A stretch of DNA of 64,000 bases from Pelotomaculum schinkii (GTDB lineage Bacteria; Bacillota; Desulfotomaculia; Desulfotomaculales; Pelotomaculaceae). Where the stretch lies: the NCBI RefSeq assembly GCF_004369205.1, contig NZ_QFGA01000003.1, forward strand, positions 124,001 through 188,000. Direction: 5' to 3'. The notes under the pieces are model-generated. The model did no database searches, had not been told where the DNA came from, and worked only from the letters and a program-made list of their open reading frames with translations. Shown piece by piece: positions 29,282 through 40,746 of this stretch; the stretch's first letter is position 1, and every line of letters starts with the position of its first letter. Position numbers and translations under genes: made by a program.

Positions 29282-29896
29282 ATGATTGCTATTATTGATT
29301 ACGGGATGGGAAACTTAAGGAGCGTCCAGAAGGGCTTTGAGAAAATGGGCGTTGAAGCTGTCGTGACCGGAAAACCGCAACAGGTGGTCCAGGCCGCCGG
29401 GGTGGTTTTACCCGGGGTGGGGGCCTTTGCCGACGCTATGACCAATTTGCGTTCGTCAGGAATGGACGAGGCCGTCCACCGGGCGGTTGAGGCCGGGAAA
29501 CCTTTTCTGGGTATCTGTCTGGGGCAGCAGCTGCTCTTTGACGCCAGTGAGGAATGGGGCCTGACCAGGGGGCTGGGTATTTTCCGGGGCCGGGTCCGGC
29601 GCCTGCCGGACGGGTTGAAGGTACCCCACATGGGGTGGAACCAGGCCGAAATTCAACGGGCCGACCCGCTTCTGGAGGGTATTCCCCAAGCGTCTTCTTT
29701 CTACTTCGTGCACTCCTATTATGTTGATCCGGAGGAGCAAGCGGTTGTCTTGACCAGGACCGAATACGGGGTTCGCTTTGCTTCCATCGTCGGGAGGGAA
29801 AACGTTTACGGGATCCAGTTTCACCCCGAAAAAAGCAGCGGGATAGGCTTAAGGATCCTAGAAAATTTCGGGAGGATGGTTAAAAAATGTTGCTGA
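29282..29896 (+). CDS. hisH: Imidazole glycerol phosphate synthase, glutaminase subunit
   Basis: A 204-residue class I glutamine amidotransferase that feeds ammonia to HisF. Cys79 in FLGICLGQQLLF is the nucleophile; the His-Glu pair is in YGIQFHPEKSS. GGGGG precedes ATG 29282; the frame is open farther upstream but the start at MIAIIDYGMGN is typical. Its end overlaps hisA by 10 bp, indicating coupling. Confidence 0.96.
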   Translation: MIAIIDYGMGNLRSVQKGFEKMGVEAVVTGKPQQVVQAAGVVLPGVGAFADAMTNLRSSGMDEAVHRAVEAGKPFLGICLGQQLLFDASEEWGLTRGLGIFRGRVRRLPDGLKVPHMGWNQAEIQRADPLLEGIPQASSFYFVHSYYVDPEEQAVVLTRTEYGVRFASIVGRENVYGIQFHPEKSSGIGLRILENFGRMVKKCC

Positions 29897-30624
29897 TCCC
29901 AGCTATTGACCTGCGGGAAGGGAAGTGCGTCCGCCTGGTGGAGGGACGACTCGATAAGGAAACCGTTTATTCAGATGACCCGTCCGCTATGGCCGCCCTC
30001 TGGCAGGACCAGGGCGCCCGTATGCTGCACGTGGTGGACCTGGACGGCGCTTTTGCCGGCGCTCCCAAAAACCTTGACGTCTTAAAGGAGATACTGTCCG
30101 CTGTTGATATTCCCGTTCAGGTGGGCGGGGGCATTCGCAGCATGGAGACCATCGAGAGCCTTTTGGGCATGGGTGTAGCCAGGGTTATTCTGGGTACGGT
30201 AGCCATTGTGGACCCTGAACTGGTGTCAGAAGCCTGCGGCAGGTACGGCGAGGCCGTCCTGGTGGGTATCGACGGGCGCAACGGGCAGGTCGCCATTGAA
30301 GGCTGGGGGCTGACGGTTGAAAAAGGAACAGTTGAACTCGCCCTGGACATGAAAAATTTGGGTGTAAAGCGTGTGGTCTTTACCGACATCAGGCGGGACG
30401 GAAAGCTGCAGGGACCCAACCTCGAGGCGACCGGACAGTTGGCGAAAGAAACCGGCTTAAAGGTAGTTGCTTCCGGCGGTGTTTCCACCCTCAATGACCT
30501 GCGGGCAATTCGAGCTATGGAGAGCCTGGGTGTTGACGCAGTGATCATGGGCAAGGCCCTTTACTCCGGAGCCATAGACCTGAGGGAAGCTCTGGCTGTG
30601 GCGGAAGGAAAGGAAGTAGGGTAG
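29887..30624 (+). CDS. hisA: ProFAR isomerase
   Basis: A 245-residue TIM barrel that isomerises ProFAR to PRFAR. Asp8 in [15 protein letters not shown] and the aspartate of [10 protein letters not shown] are the catalytic acid-base pair; phosphate loops VQVGGGIRS and [10 protein letters not shown] are intact. It overlaps hisH and is 4 bp before hisF. Confidence 0.97.
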
Positions 30625-30628
30625 GGCT

Positions 30629-31387
30629 ATGCTTCTCAAAAGGATCATCCCCTGCCTTGATGTCACCGGCGGCAGGGTGGTTAAAGGAACCAATTTCATA
30701 AACTTGCGGGATGCCGGGGATCCCGTCGAGCTTGCCGCTTTTTACGACCGGGAAGGCGCCGACGAGTTGATTTTCCTTGATATCACCGCTTCCTCCGATG
30801 GTCGCAAGACTACCCTGGATATGGTTTACCGCACCGCCGGAGAGGTCTTTATTCCTTTTACCGTCGGCGGCGGGATCAGCACCCTGGAGGATATCCGGGC
30901 CATGCTCAGTGCCGGGGCCGATAAGGTATCGATGAATACGGCCGCGGTTAAGAAGCCGGAATTGGTGGCCGAAGCCGCAGCACGGTTTGGCAGCCAGTGC
31001 ATCGTGGTGGCTATCGACGCGCGGCAGTGCGGGCCGGAAAGCTGGGAAGTATACATACATGGCGGTCGCACGCCCACCGGTATTGACGCCGTGGCCTGGG
31101 CGCGGCGGGTGGAAAAACTGGGCGCGGGGGAAATTATGCTCACCAGCATGGACCGGGACGGGACCAAGGACGGTTATGACCTGCCCCTGACCAGGACCAT
31201 TGTCAGGGCGTTGAATATCCCGGTAATTGCCTCCGGCGGAGTGGGTAATCTCGAGCATGTGGCCGCGGGGGTGACTGAAGGAGAAGCCGACGCCGCCCTG
31301 GCCGCTTCAATTTTCCACTTTGGCGAGTACTCCATCCGGGAAACCAAGCAATACCTGCACTCCCAAGGCATCCCCGTGCGTATTTAG
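30629..31387 (+). CDS. hisF: Imidazole glycerol phosphate synthase, cyclase subunit
   Basis: A 252-residue TIM barrel partner of HisH. Asp11 in [15 protein letters not shown] and the aspartate of [14 protein letters not shown] are the catalytic residues; VGGGI and ASGGVGN bind the two phosphates. It makes IGP and releases AICAR, which re-enters the purine path through PurH encoded upstream. Confidence 0.97.
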
Positions 31388-31417
31388 ACGTGGGACGTGG
31401 GAAATGAGAACGTGAGG

Positions 31418-31508
31418 AATGCAGGTGCGAATTCATTCGCACAAATGTAACATTGACCTCAACAAGTGCGGCGCAAACGCGCCGTTGTGCGATTGAAATG
31501 GCGCCTAT
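31418..31508 (-). repeat. Partial intergenic repeat (reverse)
   Basis: Carries GTGCGAATTCATTCGCAC, GGCGC...GCGCC and GCGATTGAAAT blocks of the 17092-type element but lacks the AAGAACCGTCCCC end. It lies directly before structured repeat copy 2. Confidence 0.65.
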
Positions 31509-31528
31509 TCTATTGCAATGGAGGAATG

Positions 31529-31944
31529 AAACAGCTACAGAATAACTGAATAAATTGAGATAAGAATAACAAAAACCGTTGATGCAAACACCTGTTCTGT
31601 AGTAGTATAGTAACAGGAGGTGGTAACGGTGTATGAATACTGAGTCAATATAAGTGAAAGAGAGAAGGTTTCTTAGCAGTCACTTCCGATGATGCGTCGC
31701 AAAGACACGCTGTGAAAGTCGGGCGCAGAGGTTAGAACAACTAGGCGGTGGGTAACACCCCCTTCCGGGCAGAACGGATACCAGAAAGGTGACGGCGGCA
31801 TAAGCCACCCGGAATGCAAGCGAAAGCTTGCAGCTCAGCAGTTGAATCCTGTTACGCTGCCTCCCGTTAGTCGGCGGGAGAGAAATCTAAATATTTCTGG
31901 ATTATCTTGCATAAATCAGATATGTTTAGCTTTCAGAAACCAGG
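31529..31944 (+). ncRNA. Structured ~410-bp repeat, copy 2 (unclassified RNA candidate)
   Basis: Second copy of 26864-27273, same orientation, six bases longer near its left end. The GNRA hairpin, the CTCCCG hairpin and the long ACCGTT/AACGGT stem are all preserved; substitutions fall in loops or keep pairing. It ends 8 bp before the hisI start and provides its CAGGAAG-type ribosome site region. Confidence 0.6.
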
Positions 31945-31952
31945 AAGATCGA

Positions 31953-32351
31953 TTGTCATTCGACGTAAGCAGCTTAAAATATGATCAGGCGGGACTGATT
32001 CCCGCCATAGTCCAGGACGCGGCCAGCGGCGTGGTCTTAATGATGGCCTATATGAACCGTGAAGCGGTTGCAAAGACCCTGGCCACCGGTGAGACCTGGT
32101 TCTGGAGCCGCAGCCGGCAGGAGTTCTGGCACAAGGGGGAGACCTCGGGCAACGTCCAGAAGGTGCGGGAAATTTTGTACGACTGCGATCGGGATTCTCT
32201 TGTGGTGAAAGTGGAGCAAAAGGGCGCCGCCTGCCACGAGGGCTATTTCACCTGTTTTCACTACCGGGTGGAGCAGGACGGTAATGTAACAGTAGTCGGA
32301 GAGAAAATGTTCGACCCGGACCAGGTTTACGGCAGAAAACAGCGGGGTTAG
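31953..32351 (+). CDS. hisI: Phosphoribosyl-AMP cyclohydrolase
   Basis: A 132-residue enzyme opening the purine ring of PR-AMP. Zinc ligands Cys78, Cys94 and Cys101 ([13 protein letters not shown]) and the acidic magnesium site in DCDRD are intact. An upstream open frame to 31842 is only repeat sequence; TTG 31953 with CAGGAAG before it gives the usual length. The fused HisE pyrophosphohydrolase domain found in some species is absent. It is the last his gene here; hisG, hisZ and hisE are not in the window. Confidence 0.93.
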
Positions 32352-32617: not shown

Positions 32618-33760
32618 TTAAAATATTTCGCTGTAACTCCCCAAAAAAATAAATTTACTCAGACTGTTTTCCAGCTCACAGAGCAAATTCACTGTTTCGG
32701 TCAAGTAAATGGAAGCGTCGAAATCGAAGTAGAACATGAACTCAAAATCTTTTCCGATAACCGGACGGCTTTCAAGCTTGGTCAGATTGAGCCCGAGCGA
32801 TGAAAATTTTGAAAGCAGTGTGCAAAGCGATCCCGGCTTATGGGGGAGCGATAGCAAGATGCTGATTTTGTTTGCTCCGGGATAGATTTTCATATCTTTG
32901 GAGATACAGATAAAACGGGTATAGTTGTTATCCCGGTTTTGGACGTTGTTTGTCAAAATGTCAAGGTCATAAAGCTCTGCACAGGTTTCAGATGATATCG
33001 CAGCAAGATCGGAACGGCTTGACTCAGCGACGTATTTTGCTGCGGCGGCCGTGTTGCTGAACAATGTAACCTTGATTTGCGGGTTGGCTTTCAAGAATTC
33101 GCTGCATTGGCCGATGGCCTGTTCATGCGAAACAATTTCTTTAATATCATCGAAAACTACGCTTTTTTTGGCGAGCAAGGCGTGATTAATTCTCAGCCTA
33201 ATACTGCGGACAATATGAAATTTATGTTTCTCCATCAAGTCATATACGGCGATCACCGTACCTGCCAAACTATTTTCAACCGGTAATAAACCGTACTCGC
33301 ACATCCCTTTTTCTACTGCCTGGAAAACAGATTCAAAATCATTAAAAAACATCAGAGTCGGTAGTGAGAAAAGTTTTTCGCAGGCTTGTTGGGAATAGGA
33401 ACCTTCTGTCCCCTGGCAGGCGACATTTGCTTTTGAAGGAAATTGCCTGGCCAGTTCGCAGGTCGCTGCTTTAATGTCCTGCGCCAGCTGAGAGTTGTGC
33501 GACAAAAGCTGATTTTGGTAGCTTTTGCTCAGGTCGAACAGGGTATTAAACAGCCTCTTTGCATATGTTTCCATTTTCTCTCCGGAAATTTCTGCAACGC
33601 GGTTTAAAACCTCGCGTTCCCGCTCATTGTCTAAAACAGGAAAATTGTTTTGTATTTTATACTTTGAAATCCTGGCGATTGCATCCATCCGTTTGGTAAA
33701 CAACTGAACCAACTCTAAATCAATTTGACTGAGTTCTTCTCTCAATTCTTTGATATCCAT
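32618..33760 (-). CDS. pheA: Bifunctional chorismate mutase/prephenate dehydratase
   Basis: A 380-residue P-protein. Residues 1 to about 85 form an AroQ chorismate mutase (LREELSQIDLELVQLF, KRMDAIARISKYK), the middle is prephenate dehydratase with the NYTRFICIS motif, and the C-terminal ACT domain has KLESRPVIG for phenylalanine feedback. ATG 33760 follows GGGAGG; a TTG 18 bp upstream is less likely. It is the last gene of the aromatic operon and commits chorismate to phenylalanine. Confidence 0.95.
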   Translation of the reverse strand: MDIKELREELSQIDLELVQLFTKRMDAIARISKYKIQNNFPVLDNEREREVLNRVAEISGEKMETYAKRLFNTLFDLSKSYQNQLLSHNSQLAQDIKAATCELARQFPSKANVACQGTEGSYSQQACEKLFSLPTLMFFNDFESVFQAVEKGMCEYGLLPVENSLAGTVIAVYDLMEKHKFHIVRSIRLRINHALLAKKSVVFDDIKEIVSHEQAIGQCSEFLKANPQIKVTLFSNTAAAAKYVAESSRSDLAAISSETCAELYDLDILTNNVQNRDNNYTRFICISKDMKIYPGANKISILLSLPHKPGSLCTLLSKFSSLGLNLTKLESRPVIGKDFEFMFYFDFDASIYLTETVNLLCELENSLSKFIFLGSYSEIF

Positions 33761-33863
33761 TTTTTGGCCTCCCAACACGTTTTAAATCACTATTATAGCC
33801 TCAACACAGGGAACCGCACGTGGCGCGATACAAGGGTCGTGTCGCCCCTTGATGGAAATCGTA

Positions 33864-35129
33864 TCAAATGACATCTGCAATTCCTCCAAGCCTTTTGAAG
33901 TGATCAAAAAATTGTGGATAGGATTTATCTACCGCCTCCGCCCCCTCAATGATCAGCTCGCTTTCGCAAAGCGCTGCAGCGATCGCCATTGACATCACGA
34001 TGCGATGGTCTCCAAATCCCTGCACAACTCCGCCGCGTAAAGGTTTGCCCCCGCGGATGAGCAGCGCGTCCTCCCTCTCGGTAACATCGGCGCCCACCTG
34101 TGACAGGCTTTGCGCAATTGCCGCAAGTCGATCGCTTTCTTTGATCCGCAGGCGTTTGGCGTTGTAGATGACTGTTGTTCCGGCTGCCGCTGTCGCCACC
34201 ACTGCCATAACAGGGATTAAATCGGGGATTTCGGCCGCGTCAATACGCAGAGCCTTGAGTGGTTTTCCGGTTGCGTAAGCGGTATCTTTAAAAAAAGACA
34301 CATTGGCGTCAAAACCGCGCAGCAGGTTGATGATCTCTTTATCCCCTTGCCATGAGTCTTGCGCAAGGCCGCCGCATAGGATCTCATTGCCTTGCAAGCA
34401 ACCTGCGCAAATCCAGAATGCCGCGTTGGACCAATCCCCCTCGACACTAAGATGTTGAGGCGAGCGGTATTTTTGTCCGCCTTTGATTTGATAGCCGTGC
34501 GCATGCTCTTCGATGGCGATGCTGAATTTCTTGAGAGTCGCGATGGTCATTTGGACATACCCTTTTGATTCCAACTGCGATGCGAGAACAATGCGGCTGT
34601 CTTTTTCCAACAGCGGCAAAGCCAACAGCAGTCCGGTGATAAACTGTGAGCTTACATCGCCGGGCAGGGTATAACGCCCTCCTGTCAATCTGCCGCGAAC
34701 AGTCAGCGGCAGCCCTGCCCTGTCAAAATGGCAGCCGTGGTTTTCCAGTTGCTCCACCAGCGGTTGGAGCGGGCGCTGCGGCAGTCTGCCCTGTCCCGAG
34801 AAAGTTGCCGGGACGCCCAGCGCCGCCGCGACAGGGAGCAGAAAACGCAGTGTCGCGCCGCTTTCGCCGCAATCAAGGCTGGCAAAATCACCAGTATTGC
34901 CCCAAACGGGCGAGATATTTAAAAACCCCGGCGCATCGTGATCTATCTTCGCTCCAAGCGACCTCACACATTCCATTGTGGCCTGGATATCCCGGGAGGA
35001 GGAGCCAAGCCGGACAACCGTGGGCTGATCTGCCAGAGCAGCTGCAATCAAAATGCGATGGGCGTCTGATTTTGAGGGGATTGCTTCAACCCTGCCCCGC
35101 AAAGCCGACGGCGTGATGCGAATGTTCAT
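33864..35129 (-). CDS. aroA: EPSP synthase
   Basis: A 421-residue 3-phosphoshikimate 1-carboxyvinyltransferase. [17 protein letters not shown] at the N-terminus, [20 protein letters not shown] and [12 protein letters not shown] are the PEP- and shikimate-phosphate-binding signatures. The motif after GESG is ATLRF, of the class less clearly assigned to glyphosate-sensitive enzymes. AAAGGAG precedes the ATG, one base after the aroB stop. Confidence 0.95.
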
Positions 35130-35130
35130 T

Positions 35131-36195
35131 TTACGGCTCCTTTCCCATACCCTGCCGGATGAAATCAGGCAGGGCAGACACCGGCATTTTATAGAGAACA
35201 CATTGACCGATTTTTTGGGGAATGACAAGGGTAATGCTGTCCTGGCGACGTTTTTTATCACGCAAAGCAACCCCGGCCAGCTGCTCGGCGGTAAAAGGAG
35301 AGGAAACAGGCAGATGGTTGGCTGCCAGGCAGGCTTTAATGAGCCCGGAACAGTCTGTTTCGGAAAGCCCCAGCCGCCAGGCCGCAGCGCTGATAAGCGC
35401 CATGCCGATGGCTACGGCATAGCCGTGCGTGATTGAATAGCCGCTGCAATGCTCAACGGCGTGTCCTATGGTGTGTCCGAAATTGAGCAGTTGGCGATCC
35501 CCGTTATCGAATTCGTCCCGCATGACCAGATCACGCTTAATGCTGATACATTGTTCAATACTGTCTTCCAGGTCACAATGCGCATTTCCGCCCGCCAGTT
35601 TGTCAAACAGCTTTGGGGACGCTATCACGCCGTATTTTATGGCTTCAGCTACGCCTTCGGCGAAAACGGTCTCCGGTAATGTGGAAAAGGTTGCGGGGTC
35701 GCAGAGCACGAAGCTGGGTTGGTAAAAAGTGCCCGCGAGATTTTTGCCTGCGGCGAGATTGATTGCCGTTTTACCGCCAACCGAGGCGTCAATTGCCGCC
35801 AAAAAGGTGGTTGGAATTTGCACCAGACGAATCCCGCGCAGGTAAACGGAAGCAGCAAAACCGGCCACATCTCCGGTCACCCCGCCCCCCAAAGCCACGA
35901 CAAGATCGGTCTTGGTCAGCTGCCGCTGCGCGAAAAATTCAAGAATTTGACCGAAAACAGCAAGATTTTTCGAGCTTTCTCCGTTATGTAATACAAATTT
36001 CACGACATTAAAACCTGCCTGCCGCAAAGATTCGCAGAGCGCTTCCGCGTATAGTGAATCGACAATACTGTCGGTCACAATCGCAGCCGTGCAGGCGGGG
36101 ACTCTTTTTAATATTTCCTTTCCTGCCTTATGCAGGCTTTTGTTTTCGATAAGAATGTCATAACTCCTGGATGCGTTAACGGTCACTGTTTTCAT
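35131..36195 (-). CDS. aroB: 3-dehydroquinate synthase
   Basis: A 354-residue NAD- and metal-dependent enzyme of the second shikimate step. ALGGGVTGDVAGFAASVYLRG is the nucleotide site, PTTFLAAIDASVGGKTAIN the substrate site, and NFGHTIGHAVE the metal-binding histidines. It overlaps the tyrA end by 20 bp and abuts aroA, so translation is likely coupled along the operon. Confidence 0.96.
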   Translation of the reverse strand: MKTVTVNASRSYDILIENKSLHKAGKEILKRVPACTAAIVTDSIVDSLYAEALCESLRQAGFNVVKFVLHNGESSKNLAVFGQILEFFAQRQLTKTDLVVALGGGVTGDVAGFAASVYLRGIRLVQIPTTFLAAIDASVGGKTAINLAAGKNLAGTFYQPSFVLCDPATFSTLPETVFAEGVAEAIKYGVIASPKLFDKLAGGNAHCDLEDSIEQCISIKRDLVMRDEFDNGDRQLLNFGHTIGHAVEHCSGYSITHGYAVAIGMALISAAAWRLGLSETDCSGLIKACLAANHLPVSSPFTAEQLAGVALRDKKRRQDSITLVIPQKIGQCVLYKMPVSALPDFIRQGMGKEP

Positions 36196-37051
36196 GGAAG
36201 CTCCCCATCCCGTATGAATAGTCGATAGACTCTTTCATTATTCTTCCGTCCTGCAGCAGTTTTTCAACGCTACCCCGGTTGCCGGATTTTAAAGCGTCGC
36301 TATACTCGACAAGCCGTTCGATCAAACCGTCAAGCTCGCCTATAAGATTTTCTTTATTCTCAAAGAAAAGCTCGGTCCACATTTTTTCGTGCAGCTTTGC
36401 CACTCTGGTCATATCCTGGTAGCTGCCTGCCGAAAAACCTTTGTGCTTATGCGCCAGGCTGCTTTTGACATAGGCGCTGGAAACCACATGCGCCAATTGG
36501 GAGGTGTATGCGATCATCTGGTCATGCTCTGCGGGAGAGCAAAGGGTGATGTTTGAGAATCCCAGGCTCAGCCAAAATTTTTTCATGGCTTCAATGAGCC
36601 CCAGAGGCGTTGCGCTGAAGTAAGGAGTCATAATCATGGAGGCATTATGAAACAGGCGCGTGCAAGAGTGTTTAAATCCGGAAAATTCCTTGCCGGCCAT
36701 TGGGTGGCAACCGATAAAGACAAAATCATTTTTAGCTGCGGGATCCTGCAGGGCGTCACAAACCATTTGCTTAACCCCGCAGCAGTCACATACGACACTT
36801 CCCTTTTTAAAGCTGCCGGCGTGCGCTTGTATGTAATTGATTGTGTCATTTGGATAAAGCGCCACAATAACCATGTCGCATTGCGGCAGGAGCTCGTCGC
36901 TCAACACCTCGTCTATTGCCTCCATTAGTTTCGCCAGGCAAATCACCGATTCCTGGATATCTGTGCCAAACACTTTGTGATCCGTGTTTTGTTTGATTGA
37001 TTTGGCTATTGATCCGCCAATCAATCCAAGACCGACAATCCCGATATTCAT
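36176..37051 (-). CDS. tyrA: Prephenate dehydrogenase
   Basis: A 291-residue NAD(P)-dependent enzyme. GIVGLGLIGGSIAKSI is the Rossmann loop, and GCHPMAGKEFSG holds the catalytic histidine. It makes 4-hydroxyphenylpyruvate, committing prephenate to tyrosine. There is no separate ACT domain, so feedback would differ from PheA. Confidence 0.94.
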   Translation of the reverse strand: MNIGIVGLGLIGGSIAKSIKQNTDHKVFGTDIQESVICLAKLMEAIDEVLSDELLPQCDMVIVALYPNDTINYIQAHAGSFKKGSVVCDCCGVKQMVCDALQDPAAKNDFVFIGCHPMAGKEFSGFKHSCTRLFHNASMIMTPYFSATPLGLIEAMKKFWLSLGFSNITLCSPAEHDQMIAYTSQLAHVVSSAYVKSSLAHKHKGFSAGSYQDMTRVAKLHEKMWTELFFENKENLIGELDGLIERLVEYSDALKSGNRGSVEKLLQDGRIMKESIDYSYGMGSFHENSDR

Positions 37052-37081: not shown

Positions 37082-38086
37082 TCACTGCGCAAAAGGTAAA
37101 ACATTGCGGACTTCATTGGCCAAATGAGCAAAAGCATCCGGTGTCAGCGATTGCGCTCCGTCGCAAAGGGCTTTGCTTGGGTCATTGTGGACTTCAATCA
37201 TAAGTCCGTTCGCTCCCACAACGGTTGAAGCAAGCGCCAGCGGCTTTACCAGTGCGGAGATACCCGCCGCATGACTCGGATCGACAATGATGGGCAGGTG
37301 TGTTTTACTGCGCAGCACAGGTATCGCTGAAATATCAAGGGTGTTTCTTGTCGCGGTTTCAAAGGTGCGGATGCCTCTTTCACACAGAATTACATTTTCA
37401 TTTCCGCCGGCCATGATATATTCCGCGCTCATCAGCAGTTCTTCCAGCGTGTTTGCCAGGCCGCGCTTTAAAAGGATTGGTTTTTTAATCATGCCGAGTT
37501 CTTTAAGCAGTTCAAAGTTTTGCATGTTTCTGGCGCCGACCTGAATCACATCTACCTTTTCAAAAAGCGGCAGGTGTGAAATATTCATGATTTCCGTCAC
37601 AATGGGCAGCCCGGTCATCTCTTTTGCTTCGAGCAGCAGTTCAATTCCCTCGGCGTGCATACCTTGGAAAGAGTAAGGTGAGGTGCGAGGCTTAAAAGCG
37701 CCGCCGCGCAGCATAGATGCTCCGGATGCTTTAACGCTTTGCGCAACAGAACAAATTTGTTCACGCGACTCTACTGAGCACGGGCCTGCAATGATTTGAA
37801 AATTATCTCCGCCGATTTTGACACCGTTGACATCAACCACAGTATCATCGGTGTGAAACTTGCGGTTTGCTTTTTTATACGGCTCCAGAATCCTTTTAAC
37901 ATCCTCAACGATTTCCAGCGATTTGATCAGACCAATATCAACGACACTGGTATCACCAATCAAGCCGATGATCGTCTGGTGTTTTCCAACTGAACAATGC
38001 GTGCTGATGCCCAGGCTTTTTAGCCAGGCAACAAGAGGTTCCAGCTGCTTTTGGACCGGTTTGTTGTTCTTCAGTATGACAATCAT
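37082..38086 (-). CDS. aroF: DAHP synthase with N-terminal regulatory domain
   Basis: A 334-residue first enzyme of the shikimate pathway. An N-terminal ferredoxin/ACT-like segment (about 1-70) precedes a type I-beta barrel with IIAGPCSVESREQ, GGAFKPRTSPYSFQG, VGARNMQNFELL and PIIVDPSHAAGI. The arrangement resembles Thermotoga-type enzymes, where the N-terminal domain mediates Tyr/Phe inhibition. It is the first structural gene after the Phe/Tyr leader attenuator. Confidence 0.93.
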   Translation of the reverse strand: MIVILKNNKPVQKQLEPLVAWLKSLGISTHCSVGKHQTIIGLIGDTSVVDIGLIKSLEIVEDVKRILEPYKKANRKFHTDDTVVDVNGVKIGGDNFQIIAGPCSVESREQICSVAQSVKASGASMLRGGAFKPRTSPYSFQGMHAEGIELLLEAKEMTGLPIVTEIMNISHLPLFEKVDVIQVGARNMQNFELLKELGMIKKPILLKRGLANTLEELLMSAEYIMAGGNENVILCERGIRTFETATRNTLDISAIPVLRSKTHLPIIVDPSHAAGISALVKPLALASTVVGANGLMIEVHNDPSKALCDGAQSLTPDAFAHLANEVRNVLPFAQ

Positions 38087-38110
38087 GTTTTTTCTCTCCT
38101 TAATTTCTTA

Positions 38111-38154
38111 ATAAAAAAGGGTCCAGCGTGAATTTGCATTTCACTGCTGAACCC
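38111..38154 (-). terminator. Attenuator terminator of the aromatic operon
   Basis: On the minus strand GGGTTCAGC-A-GTGAA (38140-38154) pairs with TTCAC-GCTGGACCC (38119-38132), followed by TTTTTT. It lies between the leader peptide and aroF. Its 5' arm region TTTCACTGC on the plus strand (38139-38147) is also perfectly complementary to nine bases inside the leader reading frame (38211-38219), giving a mutually exclusive antiterminator. Confidence 0.85.
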
Positions 38155-38185
38155 TTTGGTATCAATTTAGACACTGTGCTTCGTT

Positions 38186-38293
38186 CTAAATCAAATATCG
38201 ATACCTGCTTGCAGTGAAACTCAAATTAACCTTACCCCAAAAAGAAGTAAAGTAAAAATAAAAGTATTCCGCTGCAAACAATAGCTTTGTCAT
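38186..38293 (-). CDS. Phe/Tyr-rich leader peptide of the aromatic operon
   Basis: A 35-codon ORF, MTKLLFAAEY then FYFYFTSFWG, with an unbroken run of six alternating Tyr and Phe codons at 38249-38266 and then Thr, Ser, Phe and Trp to 38237. GAGGAG lies before the ATG, and a strong promoter is just upstream. It is followed by alternative RNA hairpins and a terminator before aroF. This is the classical layout of ribosome-mediated transcription attenuation: stalling on scarce Phe/Tyr-tRNA would favour the antiterminator. The gene functions through its translation rather than as a protein. Confidence 0.85.
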   Translation of the reverse strand: MTKLLFAAEYFYFYFTSFWGKVNLSFTASRYRYLI

Positions 38294-38321
38294 TTTCAGC
38301 ACTCCTCGAATATTGTGTTTG

Positions 38322-38350
38322 ATAGTAGCATAATGAAGCGCGTTTGTCAA
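38322..38350 (-). promoter_or_regulatory. Promoter of the aromatic operon
   Basis: Minus strand TTGACA (38345-38350), 17-bp spacer, TACTAT (38322-38327), about 28 bp before the leader peptide start. Confidence 0.82.
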
Positions 38351-38577
38351 CAGAAAAGTATTTGGAAAAAAATGTTTTTCAGCTTTCTCTCCGAAGATCC
38401 CACCCGGTAAAACCATCTGACAGGGGAGGCTTTCGACGCGGCTGTTGAGGTGGTTATACGGGCGGTTTCTGCTTGGGACTTTTTCCTGGCGTTGCCGGAC
38501 ATGAAGGATTTGCACATCTTTATTAGAATCTTTATTATTATATAGAGATTACATTAAAAGATTAAGCGGAGGAATGA

Positions 38578-40746
38578 ATGGATTTATTATCCCAGCTGAA
38601 CCCTGACCAGAGAGAGGCCGTGGTTTACGGCGACGGCCCGCTTTTGGTGCTGGCCGGGGCAGGCAGCGGCAAGACCAAAGTATTGACCAGCCGGGTAGCC
38701 TACCTTCTACAGGAGATGAGGGTATCTCCCCGCCAGATTTTAGCTATCACCTTTACCAACAAGGCAGCCCAGGAGATGAAGGGCCGCGTTGCGGAACTCG
38801 CGCCGGAGGCGGCCCGCGACCTCTGGATTTGCACCTTTCATGCCGCCTGCCTGCGCATCTTAAGGCGGCAGGTCGAATTTTACGGGCGTGACCGCAATTT
38901 TGTGATCTACGACACCGATGACCAGCTGACCCTGGTAAAGGAATGCATGAAAGATCTGGCCCTGGATGATAAAAAGTTCCCGCCCAGAGCGGTAGCCGCA
39001 GTGATATCCCAGGCCAAGAACCAGCTATACAGCCCGGTCGACTTCGAGCAGCGCGCCTATGATATCTTAAGCCGTAACGCTGCGAGTGTTTATCATCGCT
39101 ACCAGGAAAAAATACGCCAGAACAACGCTGTTGATTTCGACGACCTGATATTTCTGACCGTACGGCTTTTTAGAGACTATCCGCAAGTCCTTTCCTACTA
39201 TCAGGAACGGTTCCGCCACATCCTGGTGGATGAATACCAGGATACCAACCATGCCCAATATGTCCTGGTCAACTTACTGGCTAAAACCAGCCGTAATTTG
39301 TTCGTGGTGGGCGACCCCGACCAGGGGATTTACAGCTGGCGGGGAGCTGATATTAAAAACATCATGAGTTTTGAGCGTGACTACCCCGAGGCAAAGGTAA
39401 TCAAGCTGGAGCAAAATTACCGTTCTACCTCCGCCATCCTGGATGCGGCCAACCACCTGATCCGGAACAACTCCAACCGCAAGGAAAAACGGCTCTGGAC
39501 TGCAGCCGGGCCGGGGGCCCCCCTGGTAAACTATTTTGGGGAACACGAACATGCCGAGGCTGATTTTGTGGTCAGCCGCATCATACGTTTAAAGGAACTT
39601 GAAAACCGTAAATACGGGGACTTTGCCGTCTTCTACCGTACCCATGCCCAGTCGCGTGTATTTGAAGATATCCTCGTCAGGGCGGGTATACCATATATCA
39701 TCATCGGCGGTCAGAAATTCTACGAGCGCAAGGAAATTAAGGACATCCTGGCCTACCTGAGGCTAATCCTCAATCAGTTCGACGCGATAAGCCTGGCTAG
39801 AGTTGTCAATGTGCCCAGGCGCGGCATCGGGCAGGCTTCCTTAAGCAAAATAATAGCATTTGCCGGGGAAAAGGGTATCAGTCCGGTTGAGGCTATGGCC
39901 GGCGCGGCAGGAGTAGCCGGCCTGACAGTCAAAGCCCGGGCTGCCGGCGCCGCCTTGGGAGAGTTCATCCAGCGGCTGGCGGAGGAATCGATAAACTTAA
40001 CGGTTACCGAACTGGCCCGGACCGTCATGGAAGAGACCGGTTACCGCCAGGAGCTCGTGGCCGAAGACACGGTGGAGTCCCGCACCAGGTTGGAATACCT
40101 GGATGAATTCCTCTCCGCCACCGGAGAGTTTGACCGGCTGGCTGAGGAAAAGGATTTGAGAAGTTTCCTGGAAAACATAGCCCTGGTCACGGACATGGAT
40201 AATTTGGACGAGGAAATAGACCGCGTTTCTTTGATGACGCTGCACAGCGCCAAAGGCCTGGAGTTCCCTGTGGTATTCGTGACCGGTCTGGAGGAAGGAG
40301 TGTTTCCCCACAGCCGTTCGCTCCTGGATCCCGGTGAAATGGAGGAAGAGCGCAGGCTTTGCTATGTGGGTCTAACCAGAGCCAGGGAAAGGCTTTATCT
40401 TACCCACTGCTGGAAGCGGACTTTGTACGGGGCGGAGCGGTATAACAAGCCTTCCCGCTTTCTGGAAGAGATCCCTCCTCACCTTATGGAGGGTGACGAT
40501 GCTCTGTCCGGACCCGGGAAAAGTAAATCCTCCAGGCCGGCGCCAGTAAGGGATTTCCGCGAAAGAAGTCCCCAGGCGCTGGAAGCGTTCGTGCTGGGGG
40601 ACAAAGTGAAGCACAGCAAGTGGGGCGTCGGTGTTATTGTCGGGATCCAGGGGGAGGGCGTGAATGCCGAGTTTAAAGTAGCCTTCCCGGACCAGGGTAT
40701 CAAGCTGTTGCTGGCCAAGTACGCCCCGCTTGAGCGGGCCAACTAG
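38578..40746 (+). CDS. pcrA: ATP-dependent DNA helicase PcrA/UvrD
   Basis: A 722-residue superfamily 1A 3'-5' helicase. Motif I GAGSGKTKVL (Lys32), motif Ia TFTNKAAQEM, motif II VDEYQDTN, motif III GDPDQGIYSWRGA, motif IV LEQNYRST and motif V/VI TLHSAKGLEF, YVGLTRARERL are all intact. The C-terminus has the PcrA-type Tudor-like fold (GDKVKHSKWGVGVIV). It acts in repair and in removing proteins from DNA. GGAGG precedes the ATG. ligA downstream is a common neighbour. Confidence 0.97.
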   Translation: MDLLSQLNPDQREAVVYGDGPLLVLAGAGSGKTKVLTSRVAYLLQEMRVSPRQILAITFTNKAAQEMKGRVAELAPEAARDLWICTFHAACLRILRRQVEFYGRDRNFVIYDTDDQLTLVKECMKDLALDDKKFPPRAVAAVISQAKNQLYSPVDFEQRAYDILSRNAASVYHRYQEKIRQNNAVDFDDLIFLTVRLFRDYPQVLSYYQERFRHILVDEYQDTNHAQYVLVNLLAKTSRNLFVVGDPDQGIYSWRGADIKNIMSFERDYPEAKVIKLEQNYRSTSAILDAANHLIRNNSNRKEKRLWTAAGPGAPLVNYFGEHEHAEADFVVSRIIRLKELENRKYGDFAVFYRTHAQSRVFEDILVRAGIPYIIIGGQKFYERKEIKDILAYLRLILNQFDAISLARVVNVPRRGIGQASLSKIIAFAGEKGISPVEAMAGAAGVAGLTVKARAAGAALGEFIQRLAEESINLTVTELARTVMEETGYRQELVAEDTVESRTRLEYLDEFLSATGEFDRLAEEKDLRSFLENIALVTDMDNLDEEIDRVSLMTLHSAKGLEFPVVFVTGLEEGVFPHSRSLLDPGEMEEERRLCYVGLTRARERLYLTHCWKRTLYGAERYNKPSRFLEEIPPHLMEGDDALSGPGKSKSSRPAPVRDFRERSPQALEAFVLGDKVKHSKWGVGVIVGIQGEGVNAEFKVAFPDQGIKLLLAKYAPLERAN

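Follow-up and report, generated by a model that had tools for sequence, protein, structure and literature searches.

A putative attenuator with a phenylalanine- and tyrosine-rich leader peptide upstream of the aroF operon in Pelotomaculum schinkii and related loci of Clostridia

How Pelotomaculum schinkii adjusts the transcription of its genes for phenylalanine and tyrosine synthesis is a question raised by a short open reading frame (ORF), rich in Tyr and Phe codons, that lies upstream of aroF-tyrA-aroB-aroA-pheA. The locus is part of a 64,000-nucleotide stretch of contig NZ_QFGA01000003.1 (positions 124,001 to 188,000; hereafter the window, whose own numbering is used throughout). The initial annotation of this DNA had proposed ribosome-mediated attenuation at Phe and Tyr codons, a classic mechanism that is already known from other bacteria. 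The proposal gained support from a conserved ORF, a terminator and two mutually exclusive pairings, and the conservation of these three elements is the main evidence for an attenuator. We consider it highly probable (about 0.9, judged from sequence) that the region controls all five genes by ribosome-mediated transcription attenuation, in response to the levels of charged Phe- and Tyr-tRNA.

The gene order given in the initial annotation agreed with the NCBIfam assignments, with the top matches of tyrA and pheA scoring under the curated cut-offs (Table 1). The N-terminal part of pheA matched chorismate mutase models, which also scored under their cut-offs. Within 29887-32351, the + strand carries hisI (NCBIfam) and two genes that we take, from their translations, to be hisA and hisF; these genes and the aromatic operon face each other with their ends. 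Another DAHP synthase gene (G000:C2:134789-135775) is 54% identical to the window aroF and belongs to the type that is widespread in the order.

Table 1. Positions of the leader elements, the operon genes and the T-boxes used for comparison (window numbering unless a locus is named).
Feature	Position	Strand	Basis or remark
Leader region	38350-38111	-	promoter, Shine-Dalgarno, ORF, hairpin and terminator in this order, 5' of aroF
Predicted promoter TTGACA-17-TACTAT, TG before -10	38322..38350	-	10 of 12 consensus matches
Shine-Dalgarno GAGGAG before leader ATG	38302..38307	-	sequence
Putative leader peptide ORF MTKLLFAAEYFYFYFTSFWGKVNLSFTASRYRYLI, 35 codons plus stop	38186..38293	-	sequence; conserved in G001
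Putative control codons Tyr10-Phe18 (YFYFYFTSF)	38240..38266	-	leader ORF sequence
Arm 1, codons 6-11, TTTGCAGCGGAATA, partner of arm 2	38265..38278	-	folds, covariation
Arm 2, codons 25-28, antiterminator 5' strand	38210..38221	-	folds, covariation with arm 3
Hairpin between arms 2 and 3, overlapping ORF 3' end	38158..38205	-	folds
Arm 3 core, terminator 5' arm	38139..38147	-	exact complement of arm 2 core
Intrinsic terminator, hairpin 38156-38117 (arms 3 and 4), T tract to 38113	38113..38156	-	fold
aroF, DAHP synthase	37082..38086	-	NF006421, TIGR01361
tyrA, prephenate dehydrogenase	36176..37051	-	best NF006307, below cut-off
aroB, 3-dehydroquinate synthase	35131..36195	-	TIGR01357
aroA, EPSP synthase, start inferred at an ATG	33864..35129	-	TIGR01356
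pheA, chorismate mutase / prephenate dehydratase	32618..33778	-	NF008865 just below cut-off
T-box of G042, 5' of orthologous aroF	L003 3084-3328		Rfam, 119.8 bits
T-box before pheS, window's genome	L142 1501-1765		pheS by TIGR00468; 88.9 bits, gathering score 93

A consensus promoter, a 35-codon ORF rich in Tyr and Phe from Tyr10 onward and a strong terminator had all been noted in the initial annotation, and each was borne out. Both strands of 37900-38700 together gave six promoter-like matches, with 1.6 expected, and this promoter was the best of them. Between it and the terminator lies the leader ORF, which is translatable and presumably translated; Tyr or Phe occupies seven positions in codons 10-19, a run of codons for the operon's own amino acids. 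The intrinsic terminator stands before the first structural gene; its hairpin had a folding energy of -22.5 kcal/mol and was followed by six T, and aroF starts thirty bases past it. A simple terminator scan did not list this terminator, perhaps because of a bulged A. At gathering score, zero Rfam families matched the window, and a comparison of the leader with the T-box family (RF00230) gave no match above the gathering score.

The nine-base complementarity between 38211-38219 and 38139-38147 pointed out in the initial annotation is exact: TTTCACTGC, the core of arm 2 at 38219-38211, is the reverse complement of GCAGTGAAA at 38147-38139 in arm 3. Of the alternative structures that the initial annotation had envisaged, the pairing of arms 2 and 3 stood, but the protector arm had been overlooked. 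Arm 1 is able to pair with the same stretch of arm 2 that complements arm 3. The arms give a textbook layout in which arms 1 and 2 form the protector, arms 2 and 3 the antiterminator and arms 3 and 4 the terminator; the antiterminator excludes the terminator, and the protector is placed where a stalled ribosome would disrupt it. By eye, from sequence only, the congener G001 has a stretch that matches the hairpin separating arms 2 and 3, with sequence changes.

In the mechanism that we propose, the leader peptide would be translated while RNA polymerase advances. With ample Phe and Tyr, the ribosome would pass the YFYFYF codons and reach the stop codon, arm 1 would refold behind it and capture arm 2, and arms 3 and 4 would make the terminator. 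A shortage of charged Phe- or Tyr-tRNA would make the ribosome stall in the run; since arm 1 lies just 5' of the Tyr/Phe run, a ribosome stalled early would cover arm 1 and leave arm 2 free. Arm 2 would then pair with arm 3 before arm 4 exists, so that the terminator would fail and the operon would be transcribed.

Computed folds of the window agreed in part with this sequence of events. The 200-nt leader folded far better than its shuffled versions (z -6.3; 0 of 200 as good), and a stretch beginning 3' of the Tyr/Phe run folded into the antiterminator. Within the window alone, the antiterminator was modest against chance, with z -2.7 and 2 of 200 shuffles equal or better for the folded stretch and 13 of 100 shuffles equally good in a duplex test; its significance comes from comparing loci. 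When a ribosome footprint was placed on Tyr10, Phe11 or Tyr14 in folds extending to the end of arm 3, arm 3 paired with arm 2. The pairing did not form with the footprint on Tyr12, Phe15 or Phe18 (three of six stall positions gave the antiterminator), because the model permits pairing across the ribosome and pairing of arm 3 with 38299-38303. Arm 2 stayed uncovered and the protector formed when a ribosome with a +-15 nt footprint was placed on the stop codon, so that in this model termination must rest on the protector. When the footprint reached 24 nt upstream, arm 3 paired with 38213-38219 of arm 2 before arm 4 was present, a modeled fold that is a point against the simple termination picture. 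TGCTGAA, the sequence at 38295-38301 that adjoins the ribosome-binding site, has its complement, TTCAGCA (38145-38151), in the 5' arm of the terminator, and this pairing was used in some of the footprint folds; it may be a fifth arm or may have arisen by chance.

The distribution of the leader was determined in 82 loci of this aroF subfamily, comprising the window, G001 and 80 others, which were the best 80 of 585 and not a random sample. A leader was defined as an ORF with at least five Tyr or Phe in 10 residues, 5' of any terminator. A Tyr/Phe-rich ORF was present in 64 of the 82 loci and was accompanied by a called terminator in 59, whereas 18 loci had no leader by this rule. Three loci with a Tyr/Phe-rich ORF that failed the location rule (L057, L074, and L107) were counted as lacking a leader, and L083 was excluded by hand, its match being in the upstream coding region (pheA). 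At least six Tyr or Phe per 10 residues were found in the real upstream region of 64 of the 82 loci, compared with 23 of 1640 shuffled regions, and a Shine-Dalgarno-like 4-mer preceded 52 of the 59 leaders. Twelve of 398 genomes drawn from the phylum contained this aroF subfamily (E<=1e-140); all 10 further loci, which are those of the draw minus the window and G042, had a Tyr/Phe-rich ORF and a called terminator, with only Phe in the leader of L155. These loci answer the search for a conserved small ORF before aroF that the initial annotation had suggested. Conservation, on which that annotation had let its proposal depend, was found for both the ORF and the pairing.

The window aroF belongs to a particular subfamily. 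Among 60 genomes of the order, only G000, G001, and G042 contained the subfamily, with more than 80% identity; outside the order it was detected in many other Clostridia. A search with the leader DNA in 113 genomes of the order, including P. schinkii itself, gave strong matches only in its own genome and that of the congener G001, and the next-best matches had E values of 0.001 or weaker, were short and in many cases were inside the Tyr/Phe run. The order also has ordinary aroF paralogs, and none of the 19 covered here (L012-L030) had a leader as rich as that of the window; the maximum number of Tyr, Phe or Trp per 10 residues was six in L026, five in L029 and at most four in the other paralogs, compared with eight in the window.

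Single-locus comparisons of the antiterminator with shuffled sequences were weak: in 16 of 59 loci, no more than 5 of 100 shuffles equalled the real pairing. Shuffling by locus was underpowered, and we therefore used permutation tests that compared the pairing of an arm within its own leader with its pairing to the leaders of all other loci. Near-duplicates (L002, L034, L094, and L110) were removed before permutation, which was the sole correction for kinship. Arm 3 paired with its own leader 2.25 kcal/mol better on average (z -7.0, n=55), a difference reached in 0 of 20000 permutations; the controls were flat (z +0.8 for reversed arm 3 and z -0.9 for the region 5' of the ORF). The same pairing was favored by -2.94 kcal/mol in 10 hold-out loci, which include the close kin L151 and L152 (1 of 20000 permutations, z -4.3; control z +0.5). 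The protector also covaried (-3.07 kcal/mol, 0 of 20000 permutations, z -8.0; control z -1.0) in the 49 loci that remained after those with fewer than 46 nt from ORF start to arm 2 were removed as well. In 41 of these 49 loci, the arm 1 stretch began no later than codon 8, either before the Tyr/Phe run or where that run starts.

One member of the order appears to regulate the orthologous gene by other means. The aroF of G042 is 81% identical to that of the window and groups in the tree with those of the window and G001 with full support, but no Tyr/Phe-rich leader was detected within 450 nt of it. A T-box is located about 600 bases 5' of this aroF with one ORF in between, presumably a shikimate kinase gene by its resemblance, and was the sole Rfam match at gathering score among 32 related loci. 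Its specifier is probably UUC (Phe), since GAAGUUC occupies the same aligned position in the G042 T-box and in the T-box before pheS in the window's genome. The G042 T-box shares with the window the aroF subfamily, a tRNA-sensing leader and, probably, Phe as the amino acid; the difference is that a T-box reads the tRNA directly. The window's genome had 16 T-box matches, 11 of them above the cut-off, and a single cell appears to sense Phe-tRNA through a T-box at pheS and, as predicted here, through a leader peptide at aroF.

The 64 leaders contained 347 Phe, 256 Tyr and 6 Trp among 1916 residues, which suggests that Phe and Tyr are sensed and Trp is not, although aroF also feeds Trp synthesis. 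An attenuator that is real but responds to Phe alone or mainly, with the Tyr codons serving only spacing and pairing, is unlikely. The Phe-Tyr-Phe aroR leader of Corynebacterium glutamicum reportedly responds to Phe and not to Tyr (Neshat et al. 2014, as reviewed in PMC11802643), the leaders of L155, L109, and L058 are nearly or wholly free of Tyr, and the specifier of the G042 T-box points to Phe. The large share of Tyr in the leaders argues against a response to Phe alone. The Tyr share was lower in operons without a tyrA match (0.30, n=10) than in the others (0.47, n=49; p 0.002 with kinship ignored, 5 of the 64 leaders being omitted for short flanks). In the tree, supported branches left two independent pairs for this comparison, too few for a conclusion; a Tyr share that may follow the presence of tyrA is a lead.

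The constraint on the leader appears to act on the RNA. The nucleotides TTTTGCTG in arm 2 encode F-A-A in L076 and L089 and F-C-C in L087 and L093, and they are part of covarying arm 2. It is very improbable that the peptide itself is active, for example as a nascent-chain arrest peptide, even though residues such as FAAEY and GKV recur. The ORF could also be incidental, in a region that is either an ordinary 5' UTR ending in a partial terminator or an element that senses a metabolite or protein. The hairpin that separates arms 2 and 3, an extra structure outside the four-arm layout, speaks for this reading, but the reading is just as improbable given the enrichment of Tyr/Phe runs over shuffled sequence, the overlap of the ORF with the covarying arms and the lack of Rfam matches at this locus and elsewhere in the window.

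The TRAP-regulated trp leader has an array of NAG triplets before or in its terminator; the operon studied here makes Phe and Tyr. Ribosomes stall at Phe codons in the pheL-pheA and pheST systems of E. coli, where an antiterminator competes with a terminator. These two attenuators resemble the predicted one in codon-dependent stalling and competing structures, but they respond only to Phe, serve a single biosynthetic gene or a synthetase and belong to another phylum. Both are cited as known Phe attenuation systems (PMC11802643). The aroR leader of C. glutamicum, compared by description only, is also located before an aroF operon and has Phe and Tyr codons, and ribosome stalling there is described as enhancing transcription; it differs in its reported Phe-only response and in belonging to the Actinobacteria (PMC11802643). 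The uORFC-13-1 motif is a uORF with a possible promoter, a ribosome-binding site and Phe codons immediately 5' of a terminator and aroF (PMC8632094). The description of this motif, which again allows comparison by description only, covers 24 sequences exclusively from Acholeplasma and unassigned environmental sources, proposes only Phe and mentions another base-paired substructure, but not alternative arms, in contrast to the window. Leader-peptide attenuators are also reported in Firmicutes for other amino acids (His and Leu) and other operons; these are the hisS leaders of bacilli, which also replace T-boxes (PMC2965389), and the ilv-leu attenuator of S. aureus (PMC5794164). With these examples and the recurrence of the Phe/Tyr type before this aroF subfamily, the rarity in Gram-positive bacteria claimed by the initial annotation was overstated. 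An open-access literature search, mostly without full text, did not find this leader family described in Clostridia, and the predicted Phe/Tyr leaders are more broadly distributed than the descriptions found there.

Across species and with statistical support, these results indicate that aromatic amino acid synthesis in Clostridia is probably controlled by leader-peptide attenuation as well as by T-boxes; the window's genome itself also carries T-boxes. The leader peptide of the window and G001 and the T-box of G042 precede the same aroF, which would make the choice of tRNA sensor directly testable. We tentatively suggest, as a possibility that is on balance doubtful, that a dual Phe/Tyr attenuator family travels with this aroF subfamily through Clostridia and was transferred to Spirochaetota, Lentisphaerota, and Planctomycetota, that its Tyr:Phe ratio tracks tyrA in the operon and that one lineage has replaced the attenuator by a Phe T-box and so still senses tRNA. 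Ten loci came from metagenome bins named for these three phyla, which may be misassigned; four of them (L062, L082, L098, and L106) had the leader, by transfer or misbinning, and six had none. The leaders of L155, L154, L058, and L109 contain almost only Phe codons and are possibly Phe-specific versions of the switch.
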